A DNA stretch of 64,000 nt from Chitinophagaceae bacterium (GTDB taxonomy: Bacteria > Bacteroidota > Bacteroidia > Chitinophagales > Chitinophagaceae), in the NCBI GenBank assembly GCA_025449645.1, contig JANWIY010000163.1, positions 1 to 64,000 of the forward strand, given 5' to 3'. Positions 58,903 through 63,566 of the stretch are shown here, piece after piece. The notes below the pieces were generated by a model. It saw only the letters and a program-made list of their open reading frames with translations, ran no database searches and was not told where the DNA came from. Position numbers and translations under genes: made by a program. Numbering within the stretch: position 1 is the first letter of the stretch; the number at the start of each line of letters is the position of its first letter.

Positions 58903-58941
58903 GTGATGGGTGATGAAGATGAGTGATGGATGATGGATTGA
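58901..58941 (+). repeat. GTGATGGGTGATG word repeat
   Basis: GGTGATGGGTGATGAAGATG is followed by AGTGATGGATGATGGATTGA. It begins at the stop of the dehydrogenase gene. The words resemble one R1 arm, but no opposite arm is seen. Confidence 0.6.
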
Positions 58942-58989
58942 TTTCAAACCTCATTCAGCTTGCCCAAAGAAATGAGCGATTGCGCTTTT

Positions 58990-60336
58990 TTACAGGCCAA
59001 AGGGATGGGTGATGCCCAGGTGAAGTCCGGCGCTTGCAATGGGGAGATTGCCAATACCTACGCCAGCCAAAGGAATTTTCACATAAGGTTCAATCCGGAT
59101 CTGGCCAATCTTCCTCCATTTATATACATATCCGGCGCTGAATTGCATAATGGAAAAAAGGTTATTTCCTGAGTTATGGTAATATATATTCTGTGACCAC
59201 GAATTTCCGTAGCCTTCAGCATTGTAGGCATAGTTTTCTTTATTCATGATATAGGCGGATAGCCCGAATGTTGCAAAGAAGCGGCCTTTGTGGTTGTAAG
59301 CAAAATCATATCGCAAAGCCACTGGAATTTCAAACATGTTGCAACTACCGTCAAGATCCTTGATACTTACTGCGTTAGGTATATTTGTCTTGCTTGTATT
59401 GAAATATTTCCCATCACTGTAATATTGTTTCTTATCCCAGAAAAGACCGGCTTCAAAGGATATATGTTTGCTAAAACGGTAACCCGCCTCCAAGCCGATA
59501 CTGTAACCGATATTCTTAACCGGTTGAAATTTAACTGTACTAAAATCAGGGCCCGCCAACAGACTTATGTACATGCCCTTTTCTTGTCCCTGTGAAACCT
59601 TAGCCGGCTTACTCTCTTTTTGGCCGGTTTGCCCTTTAACGACAGGTTCCTTAACGGATGCTGTTGCAATGGATTTTTGAACCTGATCAGGCCCGGCGCC
59701 AGCTGGATTTTTATCTGGCGCGGCCCTGGCAGCCTGATCTTTTTCGGTCAGGCTGTTCCGTGCCGGAGTCGGATTTTCTGATGAATCTTTTTTATTCGGA
59801 GAAGAGGATGCCTGCGATAATTTTTCTGCAGCGAAATCCCGATTATCCGCTCTCTGATATAAATTTTCATTTGAATTAGCGGAGTGCCGCTGGGTTTTAA
59901 TTGAAATCGCGGCAAGAGAAGATTTCAGAATATTGTTATAAAGATGTGCAGTTTGCTGTTGCCGGACACTTTTATTGATCCTCCGCTCTAAAATTGCAAC
60001 ACCTGAGGCACTCATTGTATTTGCAGGGGCTTTTTTGCCGGCAGTTGATAAACGGGAGGGAATGGTTTTTTGTGCAACCTGTACATTTCTCTTTTCACTT
60101 GATCCGGAAAAATAGAGAATAGTGATCATGCTGAATGGAAGCAGGAGTAAAAGCCATAAAAACTTTTTCTTATTATTCCCTTTTCTCCCGGTTTCGAATT
60201 CGTAGGAAGATACGCCTCCAACCTGCGGCTGCAGTCGGCCAAGTACCCCGTTCCAATCTGAATTGTTTGTTTTTAGGGGGTATTGTTCACCAGCTTTGCG
60301 AAACAGATCATCCATATCTTCGTTTAGATATTCCAT
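58990..60336 (-). CDS. Trans-envelope protein: cytoplasmic N-domain, membrane helix, long linker, outer-membrane beta-barrel
   Basis: The 448-residue protein has a short soluble N-terminus (1-58; DDLFRKAGEQYPLKTNNSDWNGVLGRL), one membrane helix (about 59-77) and a Ser/Pro/Lys-rich disordered linker of about 175 residues. The C-terminal beta-barrel (about 254-448) is of the PorT/outer-membrane-protein type (GMYISLLAGPDFSTVKF ... GYSIGLEAGYRFSKHIS). The order implies that one chain crosses both membranes. It starts 13 bases inside the end of the ECF sigma gene, so the two are coupled, and an anti-sigma role for the N-domain is likely (inference). The layout recalls the dual membrane-spanning anti-sigma (Dma) proteins of Bacteroides. 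Confidence 0.8.
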   Translation of the reverse strand: MEYLNEDMDDLFRKAGEQYPLKTNNSDWNGVLGRLQPQVGGVSSYEFETGRKGNNKKKFLWLLLLLPFSMITILYFSGSSEKRNVQVAQKTIPSRLSTAGKKAPANTMSASGVAILERRINKSVRQQQTAHLYNNILKSSLAAISIKTQRHSANSNENLYQRADNRDFAAEKLSQASSSPNKKDSSENPTPARNSLTEKDQAARAAPDKNPAGAGPDQVQKSIATASVKEPVVKGQTGQKESKPAKVSQGQEKGMYISLLAGPDFSTVKFQPVKNIGYSIGLEAGYRFSKHISFEAGLFWDKKQYYSDGKYFNTSKTNIPNAVSIKDLDGSCNMFEIPVALRYDFAYNHKGRFFATFGLSAYIMNKENYAYNAEGYGNSWSQNIYYHNSGNNLFSIMQFSAGYVYKWRKIGQIRIEPYVKIPLAGVGIGNLPIASAGLHLGITHPFGL

Positions 60337-60911
60337 GATTTAACATCCTCCTTTTCTTTAATTAACTTTTGTAAGAATGCCCTTGCCCTCGACAGATTTG
60401 ATTTTGAAGTTCCTATGGAAATTCCCAGTGCGTCCGCTATCTCAAAATGAGAACAACCATCTATGACAAACATGTTAAACACAATTCTGTACGTTGGCGG
60501 GAGACTCTTTACGTAGGTGATCAGCTCTTTATATAGCAGCAGCTGATCAGCTTTCTGGCTCCTGTCTGCCTCTTCCCACACATATTCCGGAATCCCCCCG
60601 ATCTCGGGTGTCATGTTGTTCTTTCGCAATTCATCGATTGAAGTATTGATCACTATACGTCTGATCCAGCCCATAAGCATCCGCTCCAGTATTTCATCGT
60701 CTTCATTTCTGAATTTTTCAAAATGACGGAAAAGCTTTACAAAAGCATCATTGACTACATTCGCCGCGATATCATACCGGTAAATGTAGCGGAAACTGAT
60801 TTTCAGCGCATAGCCATAATACCGCTCATAGAGTATCTTCTGATACCGCGGCTCCTGCTTTTTGCATCCTTCAATAAGCTGTTTCAGACTCTCCAATGTG
60901 ATCGTATGCAA
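60324..60911 (-). CDS. ECF-type RNA polymerase sigma factor
   Basis: The 195-residue protein has sigma region 2 (about 25-95: LYERYYGYALKISFRYI, DAFVKLFRHFEKF, GWIRRIVINTSIDELRK) and region 4 (about 125-180: LPPTYRIVFNMFVIDGCSHFEIADALGISIGTSKSNLSRAR). It directs RNA polymerase to a private promoter set, probably controlled by the double-membrane protein encoded downstream. TTG at 60911 follows an in-frame TAA directly and no ATG is near, so a TTG start (here or at 60896) is unavoidable. Confidence 0.9.
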   Translation of the reverse strand: MHTITLESLKQLIEGCKKQEPRYQKILYERYYGYALKISFRYIYRYDIAANVVNDAFVKLFRHFEKFRNEDDEILERMLMGWIRRIVINTSIDELRKNNMTPEIGGIPEYVWEEADRSQKADQLLLYKELITYVKSLPPTYRIVFNMFVIDGCSHFEIADALGISIGTSKSNLSRARAFLQKLIKEKEDVKSWNI

Positions 60912-61488
60912 TTAACTGAGTTAAATCTTGAATGCTTATATTCCTGGTTCCTCTACAGTTTAATCAGGGGCCACAATTTGACCAATATATGCTGGTCCGG
61001 CAGTGCTGTCCGGATAAAGGCCGACGCCCATTGAATTTTGGTTTGGCTTATCTTCAAGGATTGGATTTAACAAAGATAAAAGAGTATCGGATGATTTTTG
61101 ATCCGGCTGGAAGGAAAACGACCTGACGTCGCCGTCATTAACCATTTCTGCCAGGATTGTCTGATATATGATGATTTACAGGCTTTTTTAAGGAAATTGG
61201 ACTCCCGGAGCCCTGATTTGGCTCCGGAATGGCCGGAAACGGATTATTCAGCAGCATTAAGGATTTTCTCAATATAACTGAAATTTCCGTATCGCCATTG
61301 TTAGAAATGTATACGTTAAGTAAGGATCCGGGTTGCGTATTACTTGAAATGGAATGTTAGTCGACTGAAGGGTGCTGTTTGTCGATTTGCCATTCTGTAA
61401 TTCCATTTTTCTGGTAACTTTCAAACCTGTTTTTCCCTACTCCCAATTTATTTGCTGCAGCCCGAACACCACATAAATCGTTTTAGTC
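60912..61488. other. 577-bp non-coding stretch
   Basis: It lies between the divergent sigma factor and ankyrin genes. No credible reading frame, tRNA or known RNA is seen. A perfect 8-bp stem (CCGGAGCC at 61205-61212 with GGCTCCGG at 61220-61227, seven-base loop) is present. It shares CTCCCGGAGCC with the panC leader hairpin. No clear TAnnTTTG element was found for either gene. Confidence 0.5.
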
Positions 61489-62493
61489 ATGCAAATCCTT
61501 TTGTATATGTCCCTTACGCGCAAATGGATCATGTTGGTCTTTTTGCCTGCCCTGATTTTTCCTGCTATCAATCAGGCCCAACCCAATACCGGCACCCGGA
61601 GTATGAATCAGGAAATTTTTAGGATCATCCGCTCGGGTAGTGCGGAAAAACTGGAAAACCTGCTCCGGAACGGCGCCGACGCAAATGCGATTGAAGATGG
61701 TAGTTCCGCATTAATGGCCGCCGCGCTCACCGGCACAAGAGAAGAGATGGAATTGCTGATCCGGCATGGTGCCAATGTAAACCACCAGGATTCGGATGGT
61801 ATAACCGCCTTGTGGTACGCTATTCCGGACTTTGACAAATCAGATCTATTGTTAAGCCACGAAGCCGACCCGCAATTGCGTTCCAGGGAAGGATTCTCGG
61901 TTCTGGTTAAGCTTGCAAACTATCCGGGCACGGAGAGGTTGTTTCGTTTGCTGATGGAACGCGGTGCGAATCCCCTGAAAAGCGGACCTGATAATTCCCT
62001 GCTATATAATGCAGCTTCTTCCTGCGATACTGCTATTCTGGGATTGCTGCTGCGAAGCGGTCTGCACGCTAATGATACCATTTCTTTCGGCGACTATCCG
62101 ATAAATAATGCATTGAATTTTCGTTGCTTTCCCAGCGTGAAAATGCTTGTCGATTACGGAGCTGATGTAAACGTGGCCCCCATGAATTTTAGCCTCGATC
62201 TGATCAACGGGATTACCCCGCTGATGTTTGCCGCTGTGAGCAATGACAGCCTTTCTTTTTTTTACCTGCTCGAACATGGCGCAAACCCCAATGCCCGAAG
62301 CAAGAGAGGGTATAGTGTACTCATGTATGTGCAGCAGGCTGAAAAAGAGGAACCGGCCATGACCAGGGCCTTAATCGAAAAGGGGGCAGACCCAAATGTA
62401 AAAGCGCCGGATGGAACTGATGCCTTCTCGCTGGCGCAGTTAAAAGGAAATACCGAAACCGTGAAACTGTTAAAAAAATATTCAACTAACTAA
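61489..62493 (+). CDS. Exported ankyrin-repeat protein
   Basis: The 334-residue protein has a signal peptide (RKWIMLVFLPALIFPAINQAQ) and then about eight ankyrin units over residues 40-330, for example DGSSALMAAALTGTREEMEL and GITPLMFAAVSNDSLSFFYL. It should sit in the periplasm or on the surface and mediate protein contacts. An ATG at 61507 is an equally good start, right at the signal peptide. It is 20 bases upstream of the CxxCH/cyclase-like gene, so the two are probably translated as a pair. Confidence 0.85.
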   Translation: MQILLYMSLTRKWIMLVFLPALIFPAINQAQPNTGTRSMNQEIFRIIRSGSAEKLENLLRNGADANAIEDGSSALMAAALTGTREEMELLIRHGANVNHQDSDGITALWYAIPDFDKSDLLLSHEADPQLRSREGFSVLVKLANYPGTERLFRLLMERGANPLKSGPDNSLLYNAASSCDTAILGLLLRSGLHANDTISFGDYPINNALNFRCFPSVKMLVDYGADVNVAPMNFSLDLINGITPLMFAAVSNDSLSFFYLLEHGANPNARSKRGYSVLMYVQQAEKEEPAMTRALIEKGADPNVKAPDGTDAFSLAQLKGNTETVKLLKKYSTN

Positions 62494-62513: not shown

Positions 62514-63566
62514 ATGAAACTAAAAAGTTTTTCTACTATCCTGATTTTTTCAATGGCTGTTTGTCTGGCTGCGACACTTACCAGCTGGACAAAAAAAACG
62601 TCTACCATTGACCCCGGTATCATTGGCCGTTCCGCAGAAAAAGGTTTGGTGCTCCTGCAAAAAAGCGGCTATAGCTTTATGCAACGGGGACATTGCGTAT
62701 CCTGTCATCACAATATTCTGACGGCCATGGCCCTGGAAAAAGCCAAACAAAAAGGGATTACATACAATGATTCATTGTCAAAGCAATGGATCAGGGGCAT
62801 GGAAATGGGGTTAAAGAATGTGTGTAATCTCAACCTGGTAAATGAATTCATCACAGCTAAGTTTATTGCGCCCTATATGCTTTTAGGACTCTATGCCGAG
62901 AAATATCCCGCCAGCAAAGCTACAGATATCGGGGTGGACTATCTCCTGGGACAGGCCCGGCCGGATGGCAGTTTCGGAGGCGAAGCCATGCGTGTGCCTT
63001 TGGAATCGGGGGATATACATTTAGCTGCCGTTGCCATTCGCGCAATCACCGTATATGCCCCATCATCACGGATGGCCAGGGTAAAGGAGGTCGTCAACCA
63101 AACAAGAGAATTTCTCGAGCAGGCCGATCCCTCCAACCAGCAGGAACTGGCATTTCAGTTAATGGGACTTCAATGGACCGGCGGAAGCACAGAAAAAAAA
63201 TCAGCAGTTGTTAAGAAATTAATTTCTCTGCAATGCGCCGATGGGGGTTGGGCCCAGTTGCCGACCCTTGCGAGTGATGCTTATGCAAGCGGAGAAGCAC
63301 TTTGTGCCTTGTACGAAAGTGGCATGGTTAAGGCCGATGATGAAGTGTATCAGAAGGGGATACTTTATTTACTAAAAACGCAGGACGGCGAGGGAGCCTG
63401 GGTTGTTCAAACGAGGGCAAGCCCCATTCAACCTTTCTTCAGCAGTTATTTCCCGCCTTATGATGAAAACCAGTATATTTCTGCCGCGGCCAGCAACTGG
63501 GCGGTGATGGCTTTGCTGAACGCGATTCCGGATAAATCATATGGCTCGCTAAGTGCGGAAAATTAA
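62514..63566 (+). CDS. Exported CxxCH protein with prenyltransferase/squalene-cyclase-like repeats
   Basis: The 350-residue protein has a signal peptide (about 1-24), a CVSCHHN motif (C61, C64, H65, H66), and then alpha-helical repeats with terpene-cyclase-type turns: YLLGQARPDGSFGG, LISLQCADGGWAQLPTLASDAYASGEAL and YLLKTQDGEGAW. The cyclase active-site DXDD motif is not seen, so cyclization is unlikely. The CxxCH could take heme (the window also has ccmE/ccmF) or a metal. I recall related proteins in Acidobacteria and Planctomycetes with ankyrin repeats and this domain in one chain; the function is unknown. Confidence 0.75.
   Translation: MKLKSFSTILIFSMAVCLAATLTSWTKKTSTIDPGIIGRSAEKGLVLLQKSGYSFMQRGHCVSCHHNILTAMALEKAKQKGITYNDSLSKQWIRGMEMGLKNVCNLNLVNEFITAKFIAPYMLLGLYAEKYPASKATDIGVDYLLGQARPDGSFGGEAMRVPLESGDIHLAAVAIRAITVYAPSSRMARVKEVVNQTREFLEQADPSNQQELAFQLMGLQWTGGSTEKKSAVVKKLISLQCADGGWAQLPTLASDAYASGEALCALYESGMVKADDEVYQKGILYLLKTQDGEGAWVVQTRASPIQPFFSSYFPPYDENQYISAAASNWAVMALLNAIPDKSYGSLSAEN

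Follow-up and report, generated by a model that had tools for sequence, protein, structure and literature searches.

Work on dual membrane-spanning anti-sigma factors (Dma) has chiefly concerned gut species of Bacteroides and Phocaeicola. Two such systems of Bacteroides thetaiotaomicron, Dma1/Das1 and Dma2/Das2, were reportedly described by Pardue in 2024, as cited in a later paper (Pardue 2026, PMC13088901). They consist of an N-terminal sigma-binding domain, a transmembrane (TM) helix, a long disordered tether and a C-terminal barrel, together with an adjacent ECF sigma factor. Anti-sigmas of the CnrYXH / RseA class also begin with a short helical cytoplasmic segment followed by one TM helix, as does the protein studied here, but differ in having a soluble periplasmic part and no fused outer-membrane barrel. 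Published genetics have established that Dma-type proteins restrain their sigma factor (PMC13088901; PMC9308784). PMC9308784 further describes an anti-sigma of Phocaeicola vulgatus that is predicted to reach across the periplasm and whose C-terminal part is an outer-membrane barrel, and names envelope stress as the likely trigger of the pair.

In this study, we analysed a stretch of 64,000 nucleotides (the window) from a soil-type Chitinophagaceae bacterium whose genome assembly (G000) comprises 3.6 Mb and is 86% complete. The Dma design itself is already known. New are a conserved operon in relatives of this bacterium, its predicted promoter and the loss of the operon in a lineage that retained the regulator.

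An ECF sigma gene and its overlapping partner

Both genes of the pair are encoded on the (-) strand. The ECF sigma gene (60324-60911; TTG start, 195 aa) matches the Pfam families Sigma70_r4_2 (5e-15) and Sigma70_r2 (3e-7), and a PDB sequence search places its product among RpoE-type ECF factors (e.g. RpoE, PDB 1or7). TTG also appears to be the start codon of many orthologous sigma genes. The Dma-type anti-sigma gene (58990-60336; ATG start, 448 aa) begins within the sigma gene, with an overlap of 13 nt; the coordinates and the overlap given in the first-pass annotation were exact on re-reading. The partner matches OMP_b-brl (PF13505) above cut-off (1.1e-7, residues 249-369).

We assembled 47 orthologous sigma/partner pairs. 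The 13-nt overlap is kept in nearly all pairs examined, and wherever examined the N-terminal domain (N-domain) and the barrel share one open frame behind the sigma gene. Comparison of the window genome with its closest relative, the MAG palsa_953 (G019), gave a dN/dS of 0.034 for the sigma gene and, for the parts of the partner, of 0.078 (N-domain), 0.13 (TM helix), 0.35 (linker) and 0.10 (barrel). Sigma and anti-sigma are thus held under strong purifying selection, with a relaxed linker. Given the 47 pairs, the near-universal overlap and the low dN/dS, the arrangement is not due to chance.

An alignment-based AlphaFold2 model of the 448-aa partner (28 sequences) recovered the layout that had been proposed at first reading, namely a cytoplasmic domain, one inner-membrane helix, a disordered linker and a barrel; single-sequence AlphaFold2 prediction of the partner gave no usable model (pLDDT 36). 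The N-domain (residues 1-54; 60175-60336, (-) strand) is predicted to be cytoplasmic and is presumed to bind sigma. It is modelled with two short helices (7-17 and 28-35) at low confidence (pLDDT 50-60), and a PDB sequence search with residues 1-58 returned no meaningful match. A mirror-tree analysis gave partial correlations with sigma of 0.46 for the N-domain and 0.41 for the barrel, so that the N-domain is not singled out. The inner-membrane helix (residues 55-77; 60106-60174, (-) strand) is the single TM segment, has 23 residues with a pLDDT of 60-76 by block, and carries a K/R-rich N-side (N-in) and a mid-helix proline (Pro67) which is found in 42/47 orthologues.

The tether (residues 78-253; 59578-60105, (-) strand) is disordered over residues 79-242 (pLDDT<50) and contains 77% disorder-promoting residues. 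Among the 47 orthologues the linker measures 125-337 residues (median 182) and is never shorter than 125. It lacks sequence conservation in this set; across Chitinophagaceae the conserved elements are the overlap, the N-domain and the barrel. A minimum length combined with a variable sequence would be the pattern expected of a tether that crosses the periplasm.

The outer-membrane barrel (residues 254-448; 58993-59577, (-) strand) is modelled with eight strands (254-447) and a pLDDT of about 93, and structure comparison of the model assigns it the OmpA/NspA/OprF/OmpW fold (Z 15-17). A soluble periplasmic beta-fold of the C-terminus had been named beforehand as the outcome that would overturn the barrel claim. 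This objection fails because the C-terminus models as a real outer-membrane-type barrel, and the soluble fold was rejected in view of the eight-stranded model and its OmpA-type fold matches. The model thus predicts one polypeptide running from the cytoplasm through both membranes. Cys332 (window 59341-59343), the only cysteine of the partner, lies in strand 4 toward the outer rim of the barrel in the model; it is present in 45/47 orthologues, usually as the sole cysteine.

Relationship to known Dma proteins

The published layout of Dma1-3 of B. thetaiotaomicron is the same as that of the window protein (PMC13088901). The likeness to Dma of Bacteroides claimed at first reading holds for every element, i.e. 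N-domain, TM helix, tether, barrel and adjacent ECF sigma. The Bacteroides fragilis pair formed by EcfO and its partner has the same architecture, as has M0N98_03761/03760 of P. vulgatus (PMC9308784).

Homology was assessed with sigma/Dma pairs located beside nigD in genomes of the same class, not with the named B. thetaiotaomicron proteins. Genomes with NigD genes were found first, then long barrel ORFs adjoining these genes. As a position beside nigD is the setting of Dma1 and EcfO, the nigD-linked pairs served as the Dma comparison. Profile comparison matched the barrel to the nigD-linked Dma barrel with 97% probability. The N-domain matched its nigD-linked counterpart in hhalign over 35 columns (pairwise E 7.5e-6, probability 84%) with a score of 27.6, which none of 100 column-permuted control profiles reached (best 15.0). 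The window sigma is about 35% identical to the sigmas of the nigD-linked pairs. Since both the N-domain and the barrel profile match nigD-linked Dma, the locus represents a diverged branch of that family and no new kind, and the window protein is best read, from these profile matches, as a diverged Dma (EcfO/Reo-type). Of the first-pass suggestion of a distinct branch, what stands is a Chitinophagaceae branch with its own Cys332, TM Pro67 and operon; a separate invention is not borne out.

Several features set the window protein apart from its described relatives. Compared with Dma1/Das1 and Dma2/Das2, it has no NigD gene, a different operon, Cys332 and the TM proline, and low sequence identity; NigD_C has no match in the 86% complete window genome, and no nigD adjoins the locus. 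The EcfO / Phocaeicola regulon contains NigD and LPS glycan genes, and linkage to YceI or DUF5777 is not mentioned in the accessible part of PMC9308784. In the Dma3 type, sigma is fused to the barrel protein in one chain (sigma-TM-linker-barrel), whereas the window has separate overlapping genes and an N-domain. A Dma3-like fusion of 547 aa was also encountered among the loci inspected (L166:2263-3906); it joins an ECF sigma, a TM helix, a linker and a barrel without a separate N-domain.

A conserved operon and its loss

Half of 98 relatives carry a homologue. The named relatives either belong to Chitinophagaceae or are Bacteroidota MAGs; among them are Pinibacter, Filimonas, Chitinophaga, Segetibacter, Flavisolibacter, Cnuella, Niastella and Terrimonas. 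Remoter homologues extend to other families of the same class and to one more family elsewhere in the phylum. Behind the pair, the relatives encode an OB-fold membrane protein (PF12869), a lipoprotein with a CxxCH motif whose cytochrome-like match is weak and below cut-off, a YceI protein (PF04264) and a barrel of the DUF5777 family (PF19089); some also carry a Lipoprotein_15 (PF03640) gene ahead of sigma. DUF5777 is located <=6 kb from a Dma-like gene in 25/45 Dma-bearing relatives, with 0.24 expected, and is linked in 19/28 loci of named relatives, including loci with altered gene order. In the literature searched, we found no description of a YceI/cytochrome-like/DUF5777 envelope operon and no paper on DUF5777.

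None of these genes follows the pair in the window. At the junction (58903-58989) the genes that the relatives have for the OB-fold protein, the CxxCH lipoprotein, YceI and DUF5777 are all absent, and 87 bases past the Dma gene lies a convergent gene for a 2-hydroxyacid dehydrogenase. As this dehydrogenase gene lies beyond the whole operon in the relative G007, the operon genes were evidently deleted in the window. On the other side, the leader (60912-61300, (-) strand) corresponds to the Lipoprotein_15 site of the relatives; it holds no intact gene, and a collinear remnant near 61183-61278 is weak and only suggestive (E 0.08-0.23). DUF5777, present in 82/98 genomes searched, was found neither in the window genome nor in G019. 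The window species and G019 have thus lost the operon genes and kept sigma and anti-sigma. At 86% completeness the lost genes could sit in gaps; yet the local junction is complete, and G019 agrees.

Divergently from the sigma operon, the window encodes an ankyrin-repeat protein (61489-62493) and a repeat protein (62514-63566) that resembles squalene-hopene cyclase, though below cut-off, and contains a CxxCH motif (CVSCHH). Both genes adjoin the pair in G019 too.

Predicted promoter and candidate targets

The motif GCAACC-N15/16-CGTW precedes the sigma genes, or the Lipoprotein_15 gene where that comes first. It was found upstream of 14/27 sigma genes, against 0.08 expected and a maximum of 2 in any of 300 shuffles. 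In the window, a predicted sigma-dependent promoter, GCAACC-N15-CGTA, is located at 61312-61336 on the (-) strand, 400 bp upstream of the sigma gene. The surrounding block (61301-61339) is 79% identical over 39 bp to the operon promoter of G007 (E 1e-5).

Genome-wide, the numbers of motif sites (14 and 9) do not clearly exceed those of reversed-pattern controls (9 and 12). Across the two genomes, an ORF begins 40-130 nt after 9/23 motif sites, compared with 0/21 control sites. Matches inside coding regions, such as those in contigs C12, C73, C120 and C153, were dropped as chance occurrences. The candidate targets found to be conserved between the two species comprise a collagen-like lipoprotein (C15), a secreted protein with a PKD domain (C48) and, from a paralogous pair, the sigma factor (C96). 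Assignment of these to the window sigma is tentative, because the genome contains at least four further sigma/Dma-like pairs, on contigs C80 (L036), C89 (L037), C96 (L038) and C144 (L035), and not unique, since at least one paralogue (C96) has a similar promoter motif. The collagen-like lipoprotein carries GPxGP repeats, and its GCAACC promoter is strongly conserved in both species (L061 on G000 contig C15, L058 on G019 contig C4).

Proposed mechanism and alternative explanations

We consider it quite probable that the locus encodes a Dma-type ECF sigma/anti-sigma pair in which a change in the barrel frees sigma to act on its own GCAACC operon, and on unlinked targets in the window species. 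The N-domain would retain sigma at the inner membrane, with the barrel of the same chain inserted in the outer membrane. Any change in the barrel, caused by a surface ligand or by failed barrel assembly or loss of outer-membrane integrity, would pass down the tether by pull or proteolysis and free sigma, which would then transcribe its operon from GCAACC-N15/16-CGTW promoters. In the window species, where the operon is gone, the pair would most likely work on unlinked targets. The direct signalling from the outer membrane to RNA polymerase anticipated in the first-pass annotation, and a signal of its own, are putative features of the window protein. The operon content of the relatives suggests an envelope response serving outer-membrane lipid or redox maintenance. 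The likely induction of the Phocaeicola pair by envelope stress (PMC9308784) favours sensing of outer-membrane damage or assembly. A more specific proposal, which we put forward tentatively and regard as rather unlikely, is that the Chitinophagaceae Dma branch senses the lipid or redox state of the outer membrane via its Cys332 barrel, controls the YceI/cytochrome-like/DUF5777 module by acting directly on RNA polymerase, and was rewired to unlinked targets in the window species.

A mid-helix proline can mark helices for intramembrane proteolysis, and the conservation of Pro67, together with the long, unfolded and poorly conserved linker, would agree with cleavage, regulated or constitutive, by signal peptidase, by a site-2-type protease at the proline helix or within the tether. 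Barrel and anti-sigma would then be separate molecules, and no single two-membrane chain would exist at rest. The linker floor of 125 residues, however, fits a tether and not a disposable spacer, the N-domain and barrel stay in one frame throughout, and a single sigma-TM-linker-barrel chain exists in the fusion described above. We therefore regard cleavage as possible but doubtful. It is very unlikely that the regulator is a decaying, non-functional leftover in the window species. The absence of every operon gene in this species and in G019 could be read in that way, as could a second copy of the pair on contig C112, in which only about the first 38 residues of the anti-sigma are left. But the low dN/dS values of sigma, N-domain and barrel were obtained between precisely these two operon-less genomes, the genes contain no stop or frameshift, and the promoter is conserved. 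FecR/TonB-type and RseA-type systems are common in Bacteroidota, and one might suspect an ordinary anti-sigma of either type beside an unrelated barrel. This is almost certainly not the case: no FecR, Plug or TonB-dependent-receptor domain was found and OMP_b-brl families are the sole above-cut-off matches in the partner, the neighbours are the 2-hydroxyacid dehydrogenase and the ankyrin protein, and the barrel, eight-stranded and of OmpA type, lies in the open frame of the N-domain itself.

Of the new facts, two seem most useful: relatives share a conserved YceI/cytochrome-like/DUF5777 operon, and a lineage that kept the regulator has lost it. Through its tightly conserved operon, this branch offers a concrete target set for a Dma sensor outside gut Bacteroides and Phocaeicola, and the predicted promoter gives a basis for a reporter. 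Two related species with the sensor but without the operon constitute a natural experiment, and DUF5777 gains a lead to its function from the operon linkage.

Further copies in the window genome

Among the additional sigma/Dma-like pairs, that on contig C144 has an apparently frameshifted sigma gene (84 + 110 aa). The damaged copy on contig C112 (L004:926-1701; L057) retains an intact sigma, 51% identical to that of the window, and the usual 13-nt overlap. Its anti-sigma remainder lies in a 70-aa ORF, and the deletion of the remaining operon reaches as far as a flippase-like gene.
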